Shown here: in pieces, positions 2,678-55,516 of the stretch
Layout of the letters: every line of letters begins with the position of its first letter
Position numbering within the stretch: the first letter of the stretch is position 1
Source: an uncultured Bacteroidota bacterium
GTDB taxonomy: Bacteria > Bacteroidota > Bacteroidia > Flavobacteriales > Flavobacteriaceae
NCBI GenBank assembly: GCA_902635965.1
Contig: CACPQA010000009.1
Location: forward strand, 1-64,000
Length of the DNA stretch: 64,000 bases
Direction: 5' to 3'
The notes under the pieces: model-generated
What the model saw: only the letters and a program-made list of their open reading frames with translations
Told to the model about the DNA's origin: nothing
Database searches by the model: none
Made by a program: the position numbers and the translations under genes

Positions 2678-2725
2678 ATGAAAATTTTTGATATTAATAA
2701 TTGGTGGACTTTTATGGATTCATGA
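2678..2725 (+). CDS. trpL: trp operon leader peptide (15 aa, tandem Trp)
   Basis: A 15-codon frame, MKIFDINNWWTFMDS, with tandem TGG codons at 2702-2707, stops at 2723-2725. It lies between a -7 promoter box and an intrinsic terminator, directly upstream of trpE. That is the arrangement of a ribosome-mediated attenuator: scarce Trp-tRNA stalls the ribosome on the two Trp codons, whereas full translation to the stop lets the terminator form. A structured RNA upstream of trp genes in Bacteroidota with Trp codons has been described (Bacteroid-trp RNA, as I recall it); this is probably a member or relative. Only 4 bases separate the promoter box from the ATG, so there is no room for a ribosome-binding site. 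Confidence 0.85.
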   Translation: MKIFDINNWWTFMDS

Positions 2726-2727
2726 AC

Positions 2728-2788
2728 TCGTGTAAACAACTCCTGTTACTAATATTTGGCTTGTCATCACGACAAGCTTTTTTATTTT
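2728..2788 (+). terminator. trp attenuator: terminator hairpin with candidate antiterminator
   Basis: The terminator stem is GCTTGTC (2759-2765) with GACAAGC (2771-2777) around the loop ATCAC, followed by TTTTTTATTTT. A competing pairing can be drawn: TCGTG (2728-2732) with CACGA (2768-2772) and ACAA (2736-2739) with TTGT (2761-2764), separated by a 3x3 internal loop. It uses both arms of the terminator, so the two folds exclude each other. A ribosome at the leader stop (2723-2725) would cover the 2728 region and favour termination. The terminator is clear; the antiterminator is a hand-drawn hypothesis. Confidence 0.75.
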
Positions 2789-2796
2789 AATACGAT

Positions 2797-40870: not shown

Positions 40871-41953
40871 TTATTTAACAATTACTTTTTCTTGATGGTT
40901 AATTGATTCTTGGTGTATTGCTTTAAACAATTTAAGCACAAATTCTTCAGATAATCCGTGATTTTCACCATCAAGTACCATTTTACCAAGTATTTCATTC
41001 CATCTCTTGTTCTGAAGAACAGCAACATTATTTTTCTTTTTCAATTTTCCAATAGAATCAGATATTTTCATCCTTTCTCCAAGAATTTGAAGCAGATTTT
41101 GGTCAACAATATCAATTTGTGTTCTTAAATTATCTAATTCATCAACATAGTCCTTCTTCTCGATAGTTGTATTTCGCATTTTCAAATCTTTCATTATTTG
41201 TATCAATCGGTTTGGAGTTACCTGTTGTGCAGCGTCACTCCATGCATTATCTGGATCTATATGACTTTCAATCATCAAACCATCAAAGTTAAGGTCCAAT
41301 GCCATTTGACTAAGATCAAATATCAAGTCTCTTCGTCCTGAAATATGAGACGGATCGCAAATAATAGGAATATCTGGAAACTTATTTTTTGCATCAATAG
41401 CAATTTGCCATTCAGGGTTATTTCTGTATTTCGATCTTCCTTGGGATGAAAAACCTCTGTGGATAAGCCCCAACCTGTTTATGTTTGCGGACTGAAGTCT
41501 TTCAATAGCACCAATCCAAAGTGATAGGTCTGGATTGACTGGATTTTTTACGAGAACTATTTTGTCTGTACTATTCAACGAATCAGCAATTTCTTGAACT
41601 ATAAAAGGACTAACTGTTGATCTGGCTCCAATCCACAACACATCTATATCATGTTCTAATGCTAATTTCACATGATGTTTATTAGCTACCTCAGTAGCTG
41701 TTAAAAGTCCGGTTTCTTTTTTAACTCTCTGAAGCCATTTTAAACCTATGGAACCAACACCTTCAAAATTACCTGGTCTAGTTCTAGGTTTCCAAATTCC
41801 GGCTCTGTAAGCAGTAACATCTGTTTCCTTTAATTGGTGAGCTATTTTTAAAACCTGTTGTTCAGTTTCAGCACTACAAGGGCCCGCAATAACAAGTGGA
41901 TGGGATAAGTTAAATTTTTCTAACCAGTCGTTTGTTTTTATTTTTCTTTCCAT
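40871..41953 (-). CDS. DAHP synthase fused to chorismate mutase
   Basis: 360 residues, two domains. N-terminal (about 1-260) type I-beta DAHP synthase: LVIAGPCSAETEQQVL, YRAGIWKPRTRPGNFEGVGS, KNPVNPDLSLWIGAIER, ICDPSHISGRRDL. C-terminal (about 270-355) AroQ-type chorismate mutase: DELDNLRTQIDIVDQNLLQ, ERMKISDSIGKLKKKN and KRWNEIL. The fusion puts the first shikimate step and the Phe/Tyr branch enzyme on one chain and is known in Bacteroidota. Last gene of the operon led by pheA; thus synthesis of all aromatic amino acids is tied to the Tyr/Phe attenuator. Confidence 0.94.
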   Translation of the reverse strand: MERKIKTNDWLEKFNLSHPLVIAGPCSAETEQQVLKIAHQLKETDVTAYRAGIWKPRTRPGNFEGVGSIGLKWLQRVKKETGLLTATEVANKHHVKLALEHDIDVLWIGARSTVSPFIVQEIADSLNSTDKIVLVKNPVNPDLSLWIGAIERLQSANINRLGLIHRGFSSQGRSKYRNNPEWQIAIDAKNKFPDIPIICDPSHISGRRDLIFDLSQMALDLNFDGLMIESHIDPDNAWSDAAQQVTPNRLIQIMKDLKMRNTTIEKKDYVDELDNLRTQIDIVDQNLLQILGERMKISDSIGKLKKKNNVAVLQNKRWNEILGKMVLDGENHGLSEEFVLKLFKAIHQESINHQEKVIVK

Positions 41954-41959
41954 TTTGAC

Positions 41960-42817
41960 TTAATTTTTGGGTTTAATTGTATCAAGTATTTTCTTTAATT
42001 TATTTGTTTTAATCATTTGATTTTTTAAATCGATATAATCTTCATTTTCAATTTTCAACTGAAATTGTTTTAAATTATCAATATATGTATTTAAAATTTC
42101 AACTATATTTTCCCTATTATCTTTGAAAATAGAAGACCACATTTCCGGGGAACTTTTTGCCAATCTTACTGTAGACTCAAATCCACTTCCTGCAAAATCT
42201 AATATATTTTGATTATTTTTTTCGGACTCCATGACCGTCTTTCCAAGCATAAAAGAACTTATATGAGACAAATGTGAAACTATTGCCATTTTTTTATCAT
42301 GCTCTTCTGGCTTCATATATCTAATTTTCATCCCCATCAAATTAAAAATTGATTCAGCCCATTGTAGTAAATCAGGTCTTGTCTTATTGGTCTGACAAAG
42401 AATCTGAATTTTTCCATTGAAGAGATTTTCTATACTTGCATCAGGACCAGACAGTTCATTGCCTGCTATTGGATGTGTAGCTAGGAATTGATCTCTTTTA
42501 GAATGTTTTTCAACTGAATTACACAAACTAAACTTTGTTGAACCAACATCCCATACTAGAGCATCTTTATTCAAATTGTCAAGTATAAAAGGTAAAATTT
42601 TCAAACTTTCACTTACAGGAACCGATAAAATAACCCTATCAGCTATATTTAAATTTTCAAAACTATCAATAATATCAATCAACCCAATATTCTTTGCACG
42701 CCTCACACTTAATTCGTTTTTATCAATTCCATGTATTTGAATATTACCTAAAAGATTCCTTAAATCTTTCGACATAGAACCTCCTATTAAACCGGTTCCA
42801 ATTAAAAATAATTTCAT
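41960..42817 (-). CDS. tyrA: Prephenate dehydrogenase
   Basis: 285 residues. NAD-binding LIGTGLIGGSMSKDLR at the N-terminus, VWDVGSTKFSLC, the substrate-binding FLATHPIAGNELSGPDAS with the catalytic His, and VSHLSHISSFMLG. It oxidatively decarboxylates prephenate to 4-hydroxyphenylpyruvate, the Tyr precursor. Monofunctional: no mutase domain (this is on the neighbouring DAHP synthase) and no ACT domain. Overlaps the upstream aminotransferase by 4 bases. Confidence 0.93.
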   Translation of the reverse strand: MKLFLIGTGLIGGSMSKDLRNLLGNIQIHGIDKNELSVRRAKNIGLIDIIDSFENLNIADRVILSVPVSESLKILPFILDNLNKDALVWDVGSTKFSLCNSVEKHSKRDQFLATHPIAGNELSGPDASIENLFNGKIQILCQTNKTRPDLLQWAESIFNLMGMKIRYMKPEEHDKKMAIVSHLSHISSFMLGKTVMESEKNNQNILDFAGSGFESTVRLAKSSPEMWSSIFKDNRENIVEILNTYIDNLKQFQLKIENEDYIDLKNQMIKTNKLKKILDTIKPKN

Positions 42818-43962
42818 GATTTCAATCTTTTCAAAACTTCATTCATTTTTTTTGTATCTGTACATAAAGAAATCCTAACATATCCCTCACCTTGAGATCC
42901 AAATATTGATCCAGGGCACACAAAAAAGTTATATTTATCCAACAAATGGTCAACAAAATCCTCAGATTTTAGAGATTCATCTAACATTTTACACCATATA
43001 AACATACCAACACCACTTTTAGAATAAGAAAGATTTAGTTGACTTGCAATTTCTTCTGCTAATTTTCTTCGTTTATAATACTCTTTATTAAGAGTTTCAA
43101 ACCATTTATAACTACTAGCTAAGGCTCTTATTGCTCCATACTGAACACAATAAAACATACCTGAATCAAAATTTGATTTGACTTTTAACACAGCATCTAT
43201 GAATTTTGACTCACCTACCATCATACCAACTCTCCATCCCGCCATATTAAACGATTTACTAAGGGAATTTAATTCTATAGTAACTCCTTTTGAATTTTTT
43301 AATGATAAAATACTCCTAGGTTTTTTATTTAAAATAAAACTATATGGGTTATCATTTATTAAAATGATGTCATTTTTGTATGCCCAAGAAATTAGCTCAT
43401 TTAATTTTTTTTCTGAAAAATCTGCGCCTGTTGGCATATGGGGATAATTTATCCACATAAGTTTGATGTTTTTTGTGTCTAAAGTATTTAAATCATCCAT
43501 TTTTGGGTACCAATTATTTTCCTTTGACAAACCGTAATAAAATATCTCTGCTCCTAATAATTTTGAAACTGCGCCATATGTTGGATATCCAGGATTCGGA
43601 ATTAACACACCATCGCTCTTATTAAGAAAAGCCATAGAAATATGCATAATACCCTCCTTTGATCCCATCAGAGGTAAAATTTCATTGTTTGGATTTATTT
43701 CAACACCATATTGTTTATCATAAAAATTTGAAATAGCCTCCCTAAGTTCTGGTAGGCCAATATAGCTTTGGTACATACTCGATCTTTGATGATTAATGCT
43801 TTCAGACAAAGCTTGCTTTACTTCTAAACTAGGTGATAAATCTGGGCTTCCAATGGCCATATTGATTATGGGCCTTCCAGAAGAAATATAACTATTTACT
43901 TCTCTCATTTTTTTTGAGAAATAATATTCATCTACATATTTTAATCTTTCGGCTGTAAACAT
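42814..43962 (-). CDS. Class I/II aminotransferase of the Phe/Tyr operon
   Basis: 382-residue PLP aminotransferase: NMAIGSPDLSPSLEVKQAL, YQSYIGLPELREAI, NPGYPTYGAVSKLLG, MWINYPHMPTGADF and the PLP lysine in LNSLSKSFNMAGWRVGMM. The usual NP of NYPNNPTG is replaced by HM, as in LL-diaminopimelate/aspartate-like members. Position between pheA and tyrA strongly suggests it makes Phe and Tyr from their keto acids; this is inference. It overlaps pheA by 1 base and tyrA by 4 bases. Confidence 0.88.
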   Translation of the reverse strand: MFTAERLKYVDEYYFSKKMREVNSYISSGRPIINMAIGSPDLSPSLEVKQALSESINHQRSSMYQSYIGLPELREAISNFYDKQYGVEINPNNEILPLMGSKEGIMHISMAFLNKSDGVLIPNPGYPTYGAVSKLLGAEIFYYGLSKENNWYPKMDDLNTLDTKNIKLMWINYPHMPTGADFSEKKLNELISWAYKNDIILINDNPYSFILNKKPRSILSLKNSKGVTIELNSLSKSFNMAGWRVGMMVGESKFIDAVLKVKSNFDSGMFYCVQYGAIRALASSYKWFETLNKEYYKRRKLAEEIASQLNLSYSKSGVGMFIWCKMLDESLKSEDFVDHLLDKYNFFVCPGSIFGSQGEGYVRISLCTDTKKMNEVLKRLKS

Positions 43963-44792
43963 TAATTTTTGTGTTCTAAATATTGTCCAATTATTTTAAA
44001 TTCTAAGGCCATAATTTTAAGGATTGAGACTGCTTTTTGAAAAAAATCTGTTTTTTTAAATTTTACATCTACAAAAAAAGCATACTTACCTGGTGTTTTT
44101 ATAACCGGTAAGGATTGTATCTTGGTTAGATTTAAGAGACAATCACTTAAAACATTTAGAACTGCGGCCAAACTTCCTCTTTGGTGGTCCAATATAAACT
44201 TAAGGGATGCTTTGTTATAAGATTTTTTTCCAAATGGCTCAAGATTATTCTTTAAAATAACGAATCTGGTCACATTATTATTTATTGTCTGAATAGACTC
44301 TGATAAAACATTGAGATTATAGGTTTTAGCTGCTTCTTTTGATCCTATAGCTGCAATTCCTTTTAATTTTTCTTTTGAAATTAGTTGAGCAACCTTTGCT
44401 GTATCAGTTGCTTCAACCAAACTAATACGGTCATAATCATTAAAAAATTCTTTACACTGTAAAAGTGCCATGGGATGAGAGTGTACTTCTTTAATATCTT
44501 CTAATGTCTGATTTTCATAACACATCAAATTATGATCAATAGAAAAATTAAATTCTCCTATCACATGCATATCATAGTCGTCAATCAAAGCATAATTTGG
44601 TAAAATTGATCCTGCAATTGAATTTTCAAGAGCCATTACTCCCCTCTCAACTTCCTTTTGATTTAACTTATCAATAATTTCTTGAAAAGTAATACATTCA
44701 ATCACGTCAACTGTTGGTCCAAAATAATTTAGAGCAACTAAGTGATGAAAAGAACCTTTGATGCCTTGAATAGCTATTTTCATTTCATTCAT
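43962..44792 (-). CDS. pheA: Prephenate dehydratase
   Basis: 276 residues; converts prephenate to phenylpyruvate. IAIQGIKGSFHHLVALNYFG is the substrate-domain start, then MALENSIAGSILPNYALI and NNNVTRFVIL carrying the catalytic Thr-Arg-Phe. The C-terminal about 85 residues form an ACT domain (LKFILDHQRGSLAAVLNVL), which in this family gives Phe feedback. An inner ATG at 44783 (MKIAIQGIKG) is a possible start; both lie just after the attenuator T-tract. It is the first gene of pheA-aminotransferase-tyrA-DAHPS/CM. Confidence 0.93.
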   Translation of the reverse strand: MNEMKIAIQGIKGSFHHLVALNYFGPTVDVIECITFQEIIDKLNQKEVERGVMALENSIAGSILPNYALIDDYDMHVIGEFNFSIDHNLMCYENQTLEDIKEVHSHPMALLQCKEFFNDYDRISLVEATDTAKVAQLISKEKLKGIAAIGSKEAAKTYNLNVLSESIQTINNNVTRFVILKNNLEPFGKKSYNKASLKFILDHQRGSLAAVLNVLSDCLLNLTKIQSLPVIKTPGKYAFFVDVKFKKTDFFQKAVSILKIMALEFKIIGQYLEHKN

Positions 44793-44794
44793 TT

Positions 44795-44855
44795 AAAAAA
44801 AAAGTCCTGAAAATTCAGGACTATTATTTGCTTTACAACTGTGTACTATAGCCCT
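44795..44855 (-). terminator. Attenuator of the pheA operon: terminator and competing antiterminator
   Basis: On the minus strand, the terminator stem AGTCCTGA (44822-44815) pairs with TCAGGACT (44810-44803) around ATTT and is followed by eight Ts. Competing stem: AGGGCTAT (44855-44848) pairs with ATAGTCCT (44824-44817), eight pairs including one G-U, and takes the 5' arm of the terminator. AGGGCTAT begins inside the leader stop codon, so a ribosome finishing the leader covers it and favours termination, while one stalled on Tyr/Phe codons leaves it free. This is the logic of classical phe and trp attenuators. Confidence 0.88.
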
Positions 44856-44913
44856 ACATTCTATTAAAATAAAAGTAGGAATAGTACAAATTAATTGTAG
44901 AAATTGTTTTCAT
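44854..44913 (-). CDS. Leader peptide rich in Tyr and Phe, regulating the pheA operon
   Basis: 19 codons: MKTISTINLYYSYFYFNRM, then TAG at 44856-44854. Seven consecutive codons (YYSYFYF, 44886-44866) hold four Tyr and two Phe, far beyond chance. The frame begins 8 bases after a -7 box and ends within the antiterminator arm, 32 bases before the terminator hairpin. The genes downstream make Phe and Tyr. So this is a ribosome-stalling sensor of charged tRNA-Tyr and tRNA-Phe. No homologous named leader is known to me in Bacteroidota. Confidence 0.88.
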   Translation of the reverse strand: MKTISTINLYYSYFYFNRM

Positions 44914-44921
44914 TTAAGCAG

Positions 44922-44952
44922 CAAATCTAATATCCTATGAGATAAAAACAAA
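44922..44952 (-). promoter_or_regulatory. Promoter of the pheA operon (TTTG-N19-TAGATTTG)
   Basis: Minus strand: TTTG at 44952-44949, a 19-base spacer, and TAGATTTG at 44929-44922. Both elements and the spacing fit the Bacteroidota consensus. The leader ATG follows 8 bases later, so the 5' leader before it is only a few bases. Confidence 0.75.
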
Positions 44953-46669: not shown

Positions 46670-47626
46670 TTAAAAAACAGATTCTGCGATACATTTAATA
46701 TTATCCGAACGTCCCATAGTGTAATAATGAAGAAAAGGGACTCCAGCTTTTTTTAGTTCCTTACTTTGTTCAATACACCATTCAATTCCAACTTGTCTAA
46801 TCTGATCGTTGTTTTTACATTTTATAACTGATTTTATTAAATCATCTGGTAGATCAACATAAAATCTTTGGGGAAGGACGTTTAGTTGTTTTTTTGTTGA
46901 AATTGGTTTTAACCCAGGAATTATTGGAACTTTGATTTTATTTTCTAAACATTTTTTTTGAAAGTCAAAAAACTTTTGGTTATCAAAAAACATCTGAGTG
47001 ACGATATAATGAGCGCCTGCATTAATCTTTTTCTTCAAAAAATGTATATCACTGTCAAAACTTGGAGCCTCAATGTGCTTTTCTGGATAACCTGAAACTC
47101 CAATACAAAAGTTTGTTTTTGCGTTATTTTGAATTTCTTCGTCTAAATATTTTCCTTTATTTAGGTCATCAATTTGTTTCACAAGATCACTTGCGAAAGA
47201 GTTTCCATCAACACTTGGTTTGAAATACACCTCAGATTTTAAAGAGTCCCCTCTAAGAGCAACAACATTTTCAATTCCTAAGAAGTCTAAATCTATGAGC
47301 AAATTTTCCGTTTCTTCTTTTGAGAAACCGCCACAAAGTACGTGTGGGACAGCATCTATATTATATTTATTTTGAAGGGCGGCACATATTCCTACTGTTC
47401 CTGGTCTTTTTCTTATGACATGTTTTTGCAATAAACCATTATCTAATTCTTTGTAGACATACTCTTCTCTATGATACGTGACATCAATAAAGGGCGGTTT
47501 AAACTCCATAAGTGGATCAATTGCATCAAAAATTGATTCAAGATTTTGTCCTTTTAAAGGCGGCAAAATCTCGAAAGTAAATTGGGATGTATTCTTATTA
47601 TCATTAATATGGTCTATAATTTTCAT
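46670..47626 (-). CDS. metF: Methylenetetrahydrofolate reductase
   Basis: 318 residues; reduces 5,10-methylene-THF to 5-methyl-THF with FAD, supplying methyl groups to MetH. Family motifs: FTFEILPPLKGQNLESIF with the catalytic Glu, FIDVTYHREE, GIENVVALRGDS and HYIVTQMFFDNQKFFDF. C-terminal GVPFLHYYTMGRSDNI is characteristic. Three bases after metH and last in the metK-led operon. Confidence 0.94.
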   Translation of the reverse strand: MKIIDHINDNKNTSQFTFEILPPLKGQNLESIFDAIDPLMEFKPPFIDVTYHREEYVYKELDNGLLQKHVIRKRPGTVGICAALQNKYNIDAVPHVLCGGFSKEETENLLIDLDFLGIENVVALRGDSLKSEVYFKPSVDGNSFASDLVKQIDDLNKGKYLDEEIQNNAKTNFCIGVSGYPEKHIEAPSFDSDIHFLKKKINAGAHYIVTQMFFDNQKFFDFQKKCLENKIKVPIIPGLKPISTKKQLNVLPQRFYVDLPDDLIKSVIKCKNNDQIRQVGIEWCIEQSKELKKAGVPFLHYYTMGRSDNIKCIAESVF

Positions 47627-47629
47627 AGT

Positions 47630-50344
47630 TTAAAAGTTTAAGTTTGGTTTTAACCACTTAATGGCATTTTCAAGAGTTATTTTTTTTCTATTTGCATAAT
47701 CCTCTACCTGATCCTCAGAAATTTTTCCCAGTCCAAAATATTTTGCATTAGGATTTGCAAAATAATATCCTGAAACAGAGGCCGCAGGCCACATCGCCAG
47801 ACTTTCTGTCAATGAAACACCAATATTTTTTTCAACATTGAGAATATTCCAAATTGTTTTTTTCTCTAAATGATCTGGACATGCAGGATATCCTGGTGCA
47901 GGTCTAATGCCAGAATACTTTTCCTTAATTAAATCATCATTGCTAAATTTCTCCTCTGGAGCGTACCCCCAATATTTCGTTCTTACCTTTTTATGTAAAT
48001 ATTCTGCATAAGCTTCAGCTAATCTATCGGCTAAAGCTTTTACCATTATTGAATTATAATCATCATTTTTATTTTCATAGTATTTGGATAGTTTATCTGC
48101 TCCAATACCTGTAGTAACGCAAAAAATACCTAAATAATCGCAACTCCCAGTATTTTTAGGGGCAATGTAATCAGATAGAGCCAAGTTCGGTTTGTCATTT
48201 CTTTTCATTAGCTGTTGCCTTAATGTATAAAAAGTTCCTAAAAGCTTTTTTTTATCATTTATAGAATATACCTCAATATCGTCACCTACACTATTTGCAG
48301 GAAATAACCCAAAAATAGATTTTGCTTGAAGAGATTTATTTTTTAAAATTTTTTGAAGCAATTTAGTAGCGTCAGAAAATAATTCTTTGGCTTGTTTACC
48401 AACAATTTTATCATTCAATATTTCTGGATACCGACCATGTAAGTCCCAAGATCTAAAAAAGGGACTCCAATCAATATATCCAATTAGTTCCTCTAAATTT
48501 TGATTTTTTGTGATTGTGATCCCACACTTCTTAGGAATGCAAGGTTCAAACTCTTCCCAATTTAATTTAATTTTATTTTTCCTAGCTGATTTTATACTTA
48601 TAAGTTCTTTTTTTACCTGCCTTTGTAAAAATTTGTTTCGAAAATCTTCATATTCTTTCCTAATTGTTTGTTTATAAACAACAGATGTTTTTTTATTTAA
48701 TAAACTCCCTGCCACGGTAACTGCTCTAGATGCGTCATTTACATGTACTACTGGAGTGTTTAGTTCTGGGGCTATTTTCACGGCCGTGTGAGCTTTGGAA
48801 GTTGTAGCTCCTCCTATTAATAAGGGAATGTTTATTTTCTGTCTTTTCAACTCCTGAGCTATAAAAATCATTTCATCCAAGGATGGTGTAATTAATCCTG
48901 ATAATCCGATGAGATCAACATTTTCATCTTTTGCAGTTTTTAAAATTTTTTCGGGTGGTACCATAACTCCCAAATCTATTATTTCAAAGTTATTACAGCC
49001 TAGAACAACACTAACAATATTTTTTCCAATATCATGTACATCCCCTTTAACCGTTGCCATCAGAATTTTACCCGCAACTTTTTGTTTTCCACTTTCTTTT
49101 CCCGACTCAATATAAGGTAACAGGTATGAAACTGCGTTTTTCATAACTCTTGCGGATTTAACAACTTGTGGTAAAAACATTTTACCAGACCCAAACAAAT
49201 CTCCAACCACATTCATACCATTCATCAAAAAAACTTCGATAACCTCAATTGGTTTATCAACTATTTTTCTGGCTTCTTCAACATCATAATGAATAAATTC
49301 ATCTACACCTTTAACTAAAGAATGTGTGATTCTACCCTGTAAATCTAAATTTCTCCAAGACTTTTCTTTGTGTTTGATTGTTTTCTTTTCATCAGAAAGA
49401 TCTTCAGCAAATTCTAACAACCTTTGGGTTGCATCATCCCTTCGATTTAATAAAACGTCCTCAACATGTATAAGCAAATCCTTAGATATTTCATCATAAA
49501 CTTCTAGCATTTCTGGATTTACAATACCCATGTTCATCCCATTTTTAATTCCATGATATAAAAATGCAGAGTGCATTGCTTCTCTTACTAAGTTATTACC
49601 TCGAAAAGAAAAAGAAACATTGCTTACACCTCCACTGACACTTGCGTAGGGTAAATTTTTTCTTATCCATTTCGCTGACTTAAAAAAATCTACAGCATTT
49701 GTCTTATGCTCATCCATCCCTGTTGCAACTGGAAAAATATTTGGGTCAAAAATGATGTCCTCAGGAGGGAAAAGAACTTTTTTTGTTAAAATTTTGTATG
49801 CTCTTTCACATATTTGAATTCTCCTCAAATAATTATCTGCTTGCCCATTTTCATCAAATGCCATAATAACTACCGCAGCACCATACCTTCTAATCTTTAT
49901 AGCTTTTTCAATAAATTTCTTTTCACCCTCTTTTAAACTTATAGAGTTCACTACGCACTTACCTTGAACCAGTTTTAATCCAGCCTCTACAACCTCCCAC
50001 TTAGATGAATCAATCATTATTGGAATTCTAGAAATATCTGGTTCTGAAACAATTAAATTTAAAAATTTTGTCATTGCCTCAACTCCATCAATCATGCCTT
50101 CATCCATGTTGACATCCAAAATCTGCGCTCCTCCTTCAACTTGATCTCTTGCGACTTCAACTGCAGATTTAAAATCATCTTCTTTAATATATTTTAAAAA
50201 TTTTCTAGATCCAGTGACATTTGTCCTTTCTCCTATATTTACAAAATTTGATTCTGGAGTTATAATCAGTGGTTCTAGACCAGATAAATTTAGATACTTA
50301 TCCATGGTGAATTCAAATTTTTCTTGGTTTGTAATTTCTAGCAA
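47630..50344 (-). CDS. metH: Cobalamin-dependent methionine synthase, folate/B12/activation part
   Basis: 904 residues with three MetH modules in order: pterin-binding domain (about 15-300; [16 protein letters not shown]), B12-binding cap and Rossmann domain (about 330-560; GDVHDIGKN with the cobalt-binding His near residue 437, then [14 protein letters not shown]), and the SAM-binding activation domain (about 600-904; [12 protein letters not shown]). The homocysteine domain is on the separate upstream gene; the two overlap by 32 bases. Together they make a full synthase. A split MetH is usual in Bacteroidota. Needs vitamin B12; no B12 synthesis genes are in the window. Confidence 0.95.
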
Positions 50345-55301: not shown

Positions 55302-55395
55302 ATTGCTTTCAGGAAGGATTTGAAGATTACTTTTGAAAGCAATTCTGCTTTAGCATTTTTTTTTCGAGGTTTGCAATCAGACAAATCCTTCCTCG
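55302..55395 (-). ncRNA. SAM-II-type riboswitch with expression platform, upstream of metK
   Basis: Aptamer on the minus strand (55395-55344): P1 CGAGG (55395-55391) with CCTCG (55369-55365); loop with GATTTG and GATTGCAA; A-rich linker; TGCTAAAG; pseudoknot TCTG (55381-55378) with CAGA (55347-55344). These match the SAM-II (SAM-alpha) consensus I recall. Expression platform: (a) AGGAAGGATTTG (55393-55382) is fully complementary to CAAATCCTTCCT (55322-55311), 12 bp, and uses P1 and loop; (b) ATTGCTTTC (55343-55335) is fully complementary to GAAAGCAAT (55310-55302), 9 bp, next to the metK ATG at 55298. (a) and (b) are incompatible. Predicted: SAM favours the aptamer and (b), which hides the start; without SAM, (a) frees it. 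Confidence 0.88.
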
Positions 55396-55516
55396 TTATC
55401 AGGCTATAAATATAATAAATTTTATTAATAGATAGTCTAAAAAAAACCTGCTTTATTTTTTTATGTATTAAAATTGGTATTATTTTAGTGAGAAACTAAA
55501 ACATTTTATTTTATTC

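Follow-up and report, generated by a model that had tools for sequence, protein, structure and literature searches.

A short reading frame crowded with tyrosine and phenylalanine codons, followed by three competing RNA helices, lies ahead of the phenylalanine/tyrosine operon in the 64,000-nucleotide stretch of DNA analysed here (hereafter, the window), and we consider it, with a probability of about 0.93, to be a transcription attenuator that works through the ribosome, as those of trp and pheA do, and responds to both Tyr and Phe. The reading frame, the three helices, their mutual exclusion, the coevolution of their arms and the fixed spacing between the presumed stall site and the antiterminator are borne out by sequence and comparison, and from these we infer termination, stalling and an amino-acid response in the cell. 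In other words, the locus contains the elements by which a leader-peptide attenuator of this class is recognized: an open reading frame rich in codons for the products of the operon, a terminator before the first gene, a coevolving antiterminator, and a 1:2 hairpin that holds the regulatory codons. The features, all on the minus strand, are these:

44922-44952, minus strand: Bacteroidota sigma-A-type promoter, TTTG (44952-44949)-N19-TAGATTTG (44929-44922), read directly
44854-44913, minus strand: leader peptide reading frame, MKTISTINLYYSYFYFNRM, with ATG at 44913-44911, 19 codons and stop TAG at 44856-44854
44834-44899, minus strand: predicted 1:2 hairpin (protector/pause), aromatic codon run with the end of the reading frame and the antiterminator 5′ arm, from the fold of 44825-44915
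44848-44856, minus strand: segment 2, antiterminator 5′ arm, beginning in the stop codon, 9-10 nt past the last Phe codon
44816-44824, minus strand: segment 3, antiterminator 3′ arm, overlapping the terminator 5′ arm and mutually exclusive with it
44795-44822, minus strand: intrinsic terminator, AGTCCTGA (44822-44815) with TCAGGACT (44810-44803), loop of 4, tract of eight Ts at 44802-44795
43962-44792, minus strand: pheA, prephenate dehydratase, first gene of the operon
42814-43962, minus strand: class I aminotransferase, presumed aromatic
41960-42817, minus strand: tyrA, prephenate dehydrogenase
40871-41953, minus strand: DAHP synthase-chorismate mutase fusion (DAHPS-CM), the only DAHP synthase found in the 85%-complete genome

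The promoter, leader frame, antiterminator and terminator had been placed by the initial annotation, and direct reading of the minus strand confirms the coordinates of all of them; the downstream order pheA, aminotransferase, tyrA and DAHPS/CM also holds. Tyr occupies codons 10, 11, 13 and 15 of the leader and Phe codons 14 and 16, that is, four Tyr and two Phe within codons 10-16. The ATG at 44913 is only 8 nt downstream of the promoter element, and as transcription is expected to start a few bases past the promoter, the leader mRNA of the window would be nearly leaderless. In the antiterminator, AGGGCTAT (44855-44848) pairs with ATAGTCCT (44824-44817) through eight pairs, one of them G-U. 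The terminator is the sole strong hairpin with a T run on the minus strand between 38 and 50 kb, and, given that the gene on the other side of the leader is divergent, it has no upstream gene to end.

The initial expectation was of a three-segment design without a 1:2 hairpin, which the folding test contradicts. In the fold of 44825-44915 (z -3.52, 0/200 shuffles) the stretch with the aromatic codons (44888-44869) folds back on the last part of the reading frame and the region beyond it (44864-44842), through the helices 44888-44881/44849-44842, 44880-44875/44857-44852 and 44874-44869/44864-44859, and the whole is closed by 44899-44893/44840-44834. The fold of the entire leader, terminator included, reaches a z of -5.41 (0/200 shuffles), while the antiterminator of the window folded alone is of modest stability (z -1.2). 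Since the 1:2 hairpin occupies nearly all of the antiterminator 5′ arm (44855-44848), the full four-segment logic is present, with 1:2 and 3:4 as the off state and 2:3 as the on state, the competition among the three arms being a prediction of thermodynamic folding and not of kinetics. Thus the enterobacterial pheA/trp logic that had been proposed for this leader is supported, with its layout corrected to four segments by the addition of the 1:2 hairpin that had been missed.

The sequence of events would then be as follows. RNA polymerase would start just upstream of the leader AUG, and if no translation followed, the 1:2 hairpin would form, leaving segment 3 free to pair with segment 4, and transcription would stop. 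When Tyr- or Phe-tRNA is scarce, the ribosome would stall in the aromatic run and cover segment 1, leaving segment 2 just past its front edge, so that 2:3 could pair and the polymerase could read through into pheA, the aminotransferase, tyrA and DAHPS-CM. When both Tyr and Phe are plentiful, the ribosome would reach the stop codon and mask segment 2, 3:4 would form, and transcription would end at about 44795.

The comparison with relatives strongly supports this proposal. A pheA relative was present in 130 of the 149 genomes of a Flavobacteriaceae sample, and a detector that looks for a short frame with at least four Phe, Tyr or Trp in seven codons, followed by a terminator, was positive at 124 of these 130 loci and in none of 650 dinucleotide shuffles of the upstream regions. 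The six apparent absences were mostly artefacts of the detector, as four of them carry the leader: in L042 it is cut by the contig edge, and in L091, L062 and L120 it lies about 350-900 nt upstream of pheA. The Phe- and Tyr-rich leader with its terminator is therefore found at 128 of the 130 family loci, with L044 and L101 the only family genomes that have pheA without it. The initial annotation had proposed as a refutation that relatives with the same gene order might show no Tyr/Phe-rich short frame or no conserved alternative stems; this was examined, and the relatives with the same genes have both. In all the relatives of the same genus (L002 and L220-L224, the latter being single-cell genomes and MAGs of close marine relatives) the frame of 19 codons is exact, with Tyr and Phe codons interchanged. 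The promoter matches at 12 of 12 positions in 74 of the 124 family leaders, versus 0.2% of shuffles, with a spacer mode of 18.

Beyond the family, the leader was found in 23 of the 26 genomes fetched from other orders of the class Bacteroidia (L154, L155 and L157 have pheA without a leader), in 10 of 20 of the same order outside the family, and in 4 of 12 from other classes of the phylum. The absences within the order are the 600-kb Blattabacterium-like genomes, the family f2, in which pheA has diverged, and L204; the Blattabacterium-like genomes L205-L208 have kept the pheA-aminotransferase-tyrA-DAHPS operon, with no leader or terminator seen. The four from other classes (L161, L167, L171 and L178) are those with a Bacteroidia-like pheA, which suggests that operon and attenuator were transferred together. 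Some of these cases had at first seemed to lack the leader: L160, L163, L165, L168, L173 and L177, from other orders, and L161, from another class, were missed by the strict detector and recovered by covariance model and reading by eye, the leader of L165 requiring a GTG start and that of L173 depending on the reading, as its model E is only 0.27. On whole genomes the covariance model R1 gives one low-E site per genome, at pheA. Its matches with E of 0.0007-0.008, at a second site in G390 and in G391, turned out to be ordinary gene-end terminators, for which reason an E above about 0.0005 is not to be trusted where a leader is lacking. In L217 (G409), which belongs to a different family of the order, pheA is preceded by three Phe-rich leader-terminator units in tandem (789-1183).

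The distance between terminator and gene bears on whether the hairpin, being close to the start of pheA, might occlude it and so control translation rather than transcription. In the window this would be conceivable, as the terminator stem ends 11 nt upstream of the pheA ATG; among relatives, however, the hairpin is followed by a long T tract and the gap extends from about 8 nt to the 350-900 nt of L091, L062 and L120, which excludes occlusion as a general mechanism and makes it very unlikely here. A terminator that may stand anywhere between about 8 and 900 nt from the gene argues for control of transcription, as an attenuator would exert it.

If the leader acts through its alternative stems, their arms should have changed together, and this is what is observed. 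The terminator 5′ arm exists in 38 types (GTCTCG, GTCCCG, GTCCTG, TCCCGC, GACCGC, etc.), which the upstream segment follows, and in 173 of 174 leaders it has a pairing partner where the leader frame ends or close by. In an alignment-free test of own versus foreign arms with permutations, taking one leader per type, the mean pairing was -9.6 kcal/mol with the own arm and -6.0 with foreign ones (0/10,000 permutations). In the MAFFT alignment A1 the GAGAC and GGGAC types are wrongly offset from each other by one base at the antiterminator arm, and its column counts there (75% paired) therefore understate the pairing. For the 1:2 hairpin, the relatives give -12.3 kcal/mol for own arms versus -7.9 for foreign arms (0/2000 permutations), and the outer stem shows 90% pairing and 8 double changes in alignment A2. 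The terminator, in 51 relatives, has 97% of cells paired and five pairs with double changes (0/500 shuffles). Compensatory changes, expected in both stems, are thus seen in the terminator and, between clades, in the antiterminator; within the closest clade antiterminator covariation is weak because the arm hardly varies there, and it is from the comparison between clades that its support comes.

A second regularity is one of distance. The first paired base of the antiterminator lies 10.0 nt (sd 2.2, quartiles 9 and 11) past the end of the final aromatic codon, versus -12.6 (sd 7.6) when the distance to the same arm is taken from the stop codon, which suggests that the position of the stop codon matters less than the spacing from the aromatic codons; segment 2 falls within the reading frame in most relatives and starts in the stop codon in the window. 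When the final aromatic codon occupies the A site, the ribosome extends approximately as far as the first base of the antiterminator. The fixed spacing of about 10 nt thus looks like a ruler for the stalled ribosome, by which a stall anywhere in the run would leave segment 2 free and an advance of a few codons would cover it. This constancy is in part due to shared descent, yet it holds across orders with unrelated arm sequences.

These observations weigh against two further explanations. According to the first, the hairpin would be a constitutive terminator, or the end of a terminated small RNA, with a fortuitous short frame and no sensing of amino acids. No supporting point was found for it, even if in RNA-seq the terminated leader would look like a small RNA about 120 nt long, and the failure of any of the 650 shuffles to yield leader plus terminator, the class-wide conservation of the aromatic run, the coevolution of the antiterminator and the 10-nt spacing make it extremely improbable. 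According to the second, the leader peptide would act also, or mainly, in trans, for which there is a precedent in the peTrpL of Sinorhizobium (PMC7298713) and nothing more; its C-terminal residues vary with the RNA arm (KRNETLYV, KRGTGLL, EDCAMVI), as is expected if it is the RNA pairing and not the peptide sequence that is selected, and we hold a role in trans to be scarcely credible.

The composition of the leaders is likewise in favour of the attenuator reading. Phe and Tyr are both present in all 124 family leaders, where together they make up 37% of the residues versus 6.7% in the proteins of the operon itself (22% F and 15% Y versus 3.9% and 2.8%). Trp, at 2.9% of leader residues versus 1.3% in the operon's proteins, has a codon in 84 of the 124, mostly beside or inside the aromatic run; the Phe/Tyr leader in the species and genus of the window has none. 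As the operon contains a DAHP synthase, it is plausible that all three aromatic amino acids are sensed, and it is possible, at somewhat less than even odds, that most of the family uses one leader to read Phe, Tyr and Trp, adjusting the common-pathway DAHP synthase to the combined supply of the three, and that this was an ancestral regulator of the Bacteroidia.

The order pheA-aminotransferase-tyrA-DAHPS-CM is kept in 84 of the 96 family loci whose sequence extends far enough. No second DAHP synthase was found in the 85%-complete genome of the window: its remaining PF00793 protein is KdsA and a class II enzyme is absent, so that the first shikimate step appears in this genome to be under the Phe/Tyr leader alone, in support of the control of that step already proposed. 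The idea that Tyr codons are lost when tyrA leaves the operon did not hold, for although L217 is Phe-only and lacks tyrA, L153, L156 and L166 keep Tyr with no recognised tyrA.

With respect to known systems, the enterobacterial pheA attenuator (Rfam Phe_leader, RF01859) shares with this leader the Phe-rich peptide, the 1:2, 2:3 and 3:4 stems, the terminator and the site upstream of prephenate dehydratase. Four relatives match its model at 27-34 bits (best 34.3), below the gathering cut-off of 55, which is a likeness and not membership, and the window gives no match. In contrast to RF01859, conservation of Tyr here equals that of Phe, Trp occurs frequently, and DAHP synthase and tyrA belong to the operon; the pheA leader of E. 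coli is Phe-only. Mixed-residue attenuators, in which one leader reads more than one amino acid, include those of enterobacterial thr (Thr and Ile) and ilv (Ile/Leu/Val), the pheST leader and the Leu/phe leader of Lactococcus (RF01743), and we know of none that combines Tyr and Phe, or Tyr, Phe and Trp, before an operon containing DAHP synthase. RF01743 is tabulated in PMC2864571.

The Rfam search gave no match at the leader of the window, and a Phe/Tyr leader family is absent from Rfam. That the leader is instead a T-box or a riboswitch binding a metabolite, its frame being a coincidence, is of negligible likelihood; no supporting point was found, given that no riboswitch or T-box of Rfam matches at the leader and that the conserved core consists of the codon run and the alternative stems, with no further conserved aptamer. 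Bacteroid-trp RNA (RF01692), a trp leader-peptide attenuator, matches neither the window nor 13 loci, and differs from the Phe/Tyr leader in its amino acid, operon and sequence. It is tabulated as a candidate cis-regulatory RNA of Bacteroidetes (PMC2864571). In 2021 a structured 5′ element before pheA was reported in Flavobacterium psychrophilum and other genera of Flavobacteriaceae, with no Rfam hits, together with strong indications that amino-acid operons of F. psychrophilum are attenuated through leader peptides (PMC9723704). That element, a conserved pheA 5′ element without an Rfam hit, as here, is almost certainly the same as the Phe/Tyr leader, the two being compared by description and not by sequence. 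The main text of PMC9723704 gives no leader sequence, no Phe/Tyr assignment and no mechanism for pheA, and its range is that of Flavobacteriaceae only. The initial annotation held that this was not a described RNA family, which stands as regards Rfam and needs trimming as regards the element of 2021. On Tyr and Phe leaders or attenuation in Bacteroidota, PMC9723704 and PMC2864571 were the only literature found. Thus the mechanism was already known and the element had been noticed (PMC9723704); the present analysis adds the reading of Phe and Tyr (and Trp), the anatomy in four segments, the coevolution of the arms, the rule of spacing and the range across the class.

Other regulatory elements and genes were observed in the same material. 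The leader-type attenuators of the 64-kb window are the Phe/Tyr leader and one trp leader only. The latter (2678-2790, plus strand) consists of a frame, MKIFDINNWWTFMDS and its stop codon, that has two Trp codons side by side, and of a terminator after it; trpE and the other trp genes come next, and the promoter element of the leader, TATATTTG, is only 4 nt upstream of the ATG. A his leader in the same genome (L226, about 1230-1340; G000:C12), MKKLHHLHIYKAVSNEM with a stop codon and a strong terminator before hisG, has its promoter element 6 nt before the ATG. With promoters so close to the ATG in the his and trp leaders, all three operons, trp, his and Phe/Tyr, would have near-leaderless leader-peptide attenuators in this genome. 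A Met/Cys-rich leader, MIQIQKNMCCMCMCRNYTEAYYAL with its stop codon, and a terminator precede genes resembling cysH, cysD and cysN in L217 (4203-4316; G409), a putative Cys attenuator for the sulfate assimilation of Bacteroidota. On the minus strand of the window, a SAM-II riboswitch (RF01726, 73 bits, 55340-55400) lies directly upstream of a gene that reads as metK, and at 46670-50344 metF adjoins a 904-aa metH whose match to the methionine synthase models begins only at position 322-339, so that the N-terminal homocysteine-binding part is missing.

Ribosome-mediated attenuation has been described mainly in Proteobacteria and Actinobacteria, and the present results indicate it, in its classical form, for the synthesis of aromatic amino acids across the class Bacteroidia. 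Bacteroidota do not rely on Shine-Dalgarno sequences. As the leader family is large and divergent, its conserved spacing of about 10 nt would provide a natural measure of the footprint of the stalled ribosome in Bacteroidota, and also a gauge of how tightly transcription and translation are coupled in them. Finally, the leader offers annotation a ready RNA family and would serve as a native sensor of Phe and Tyr in Bacteroidota.
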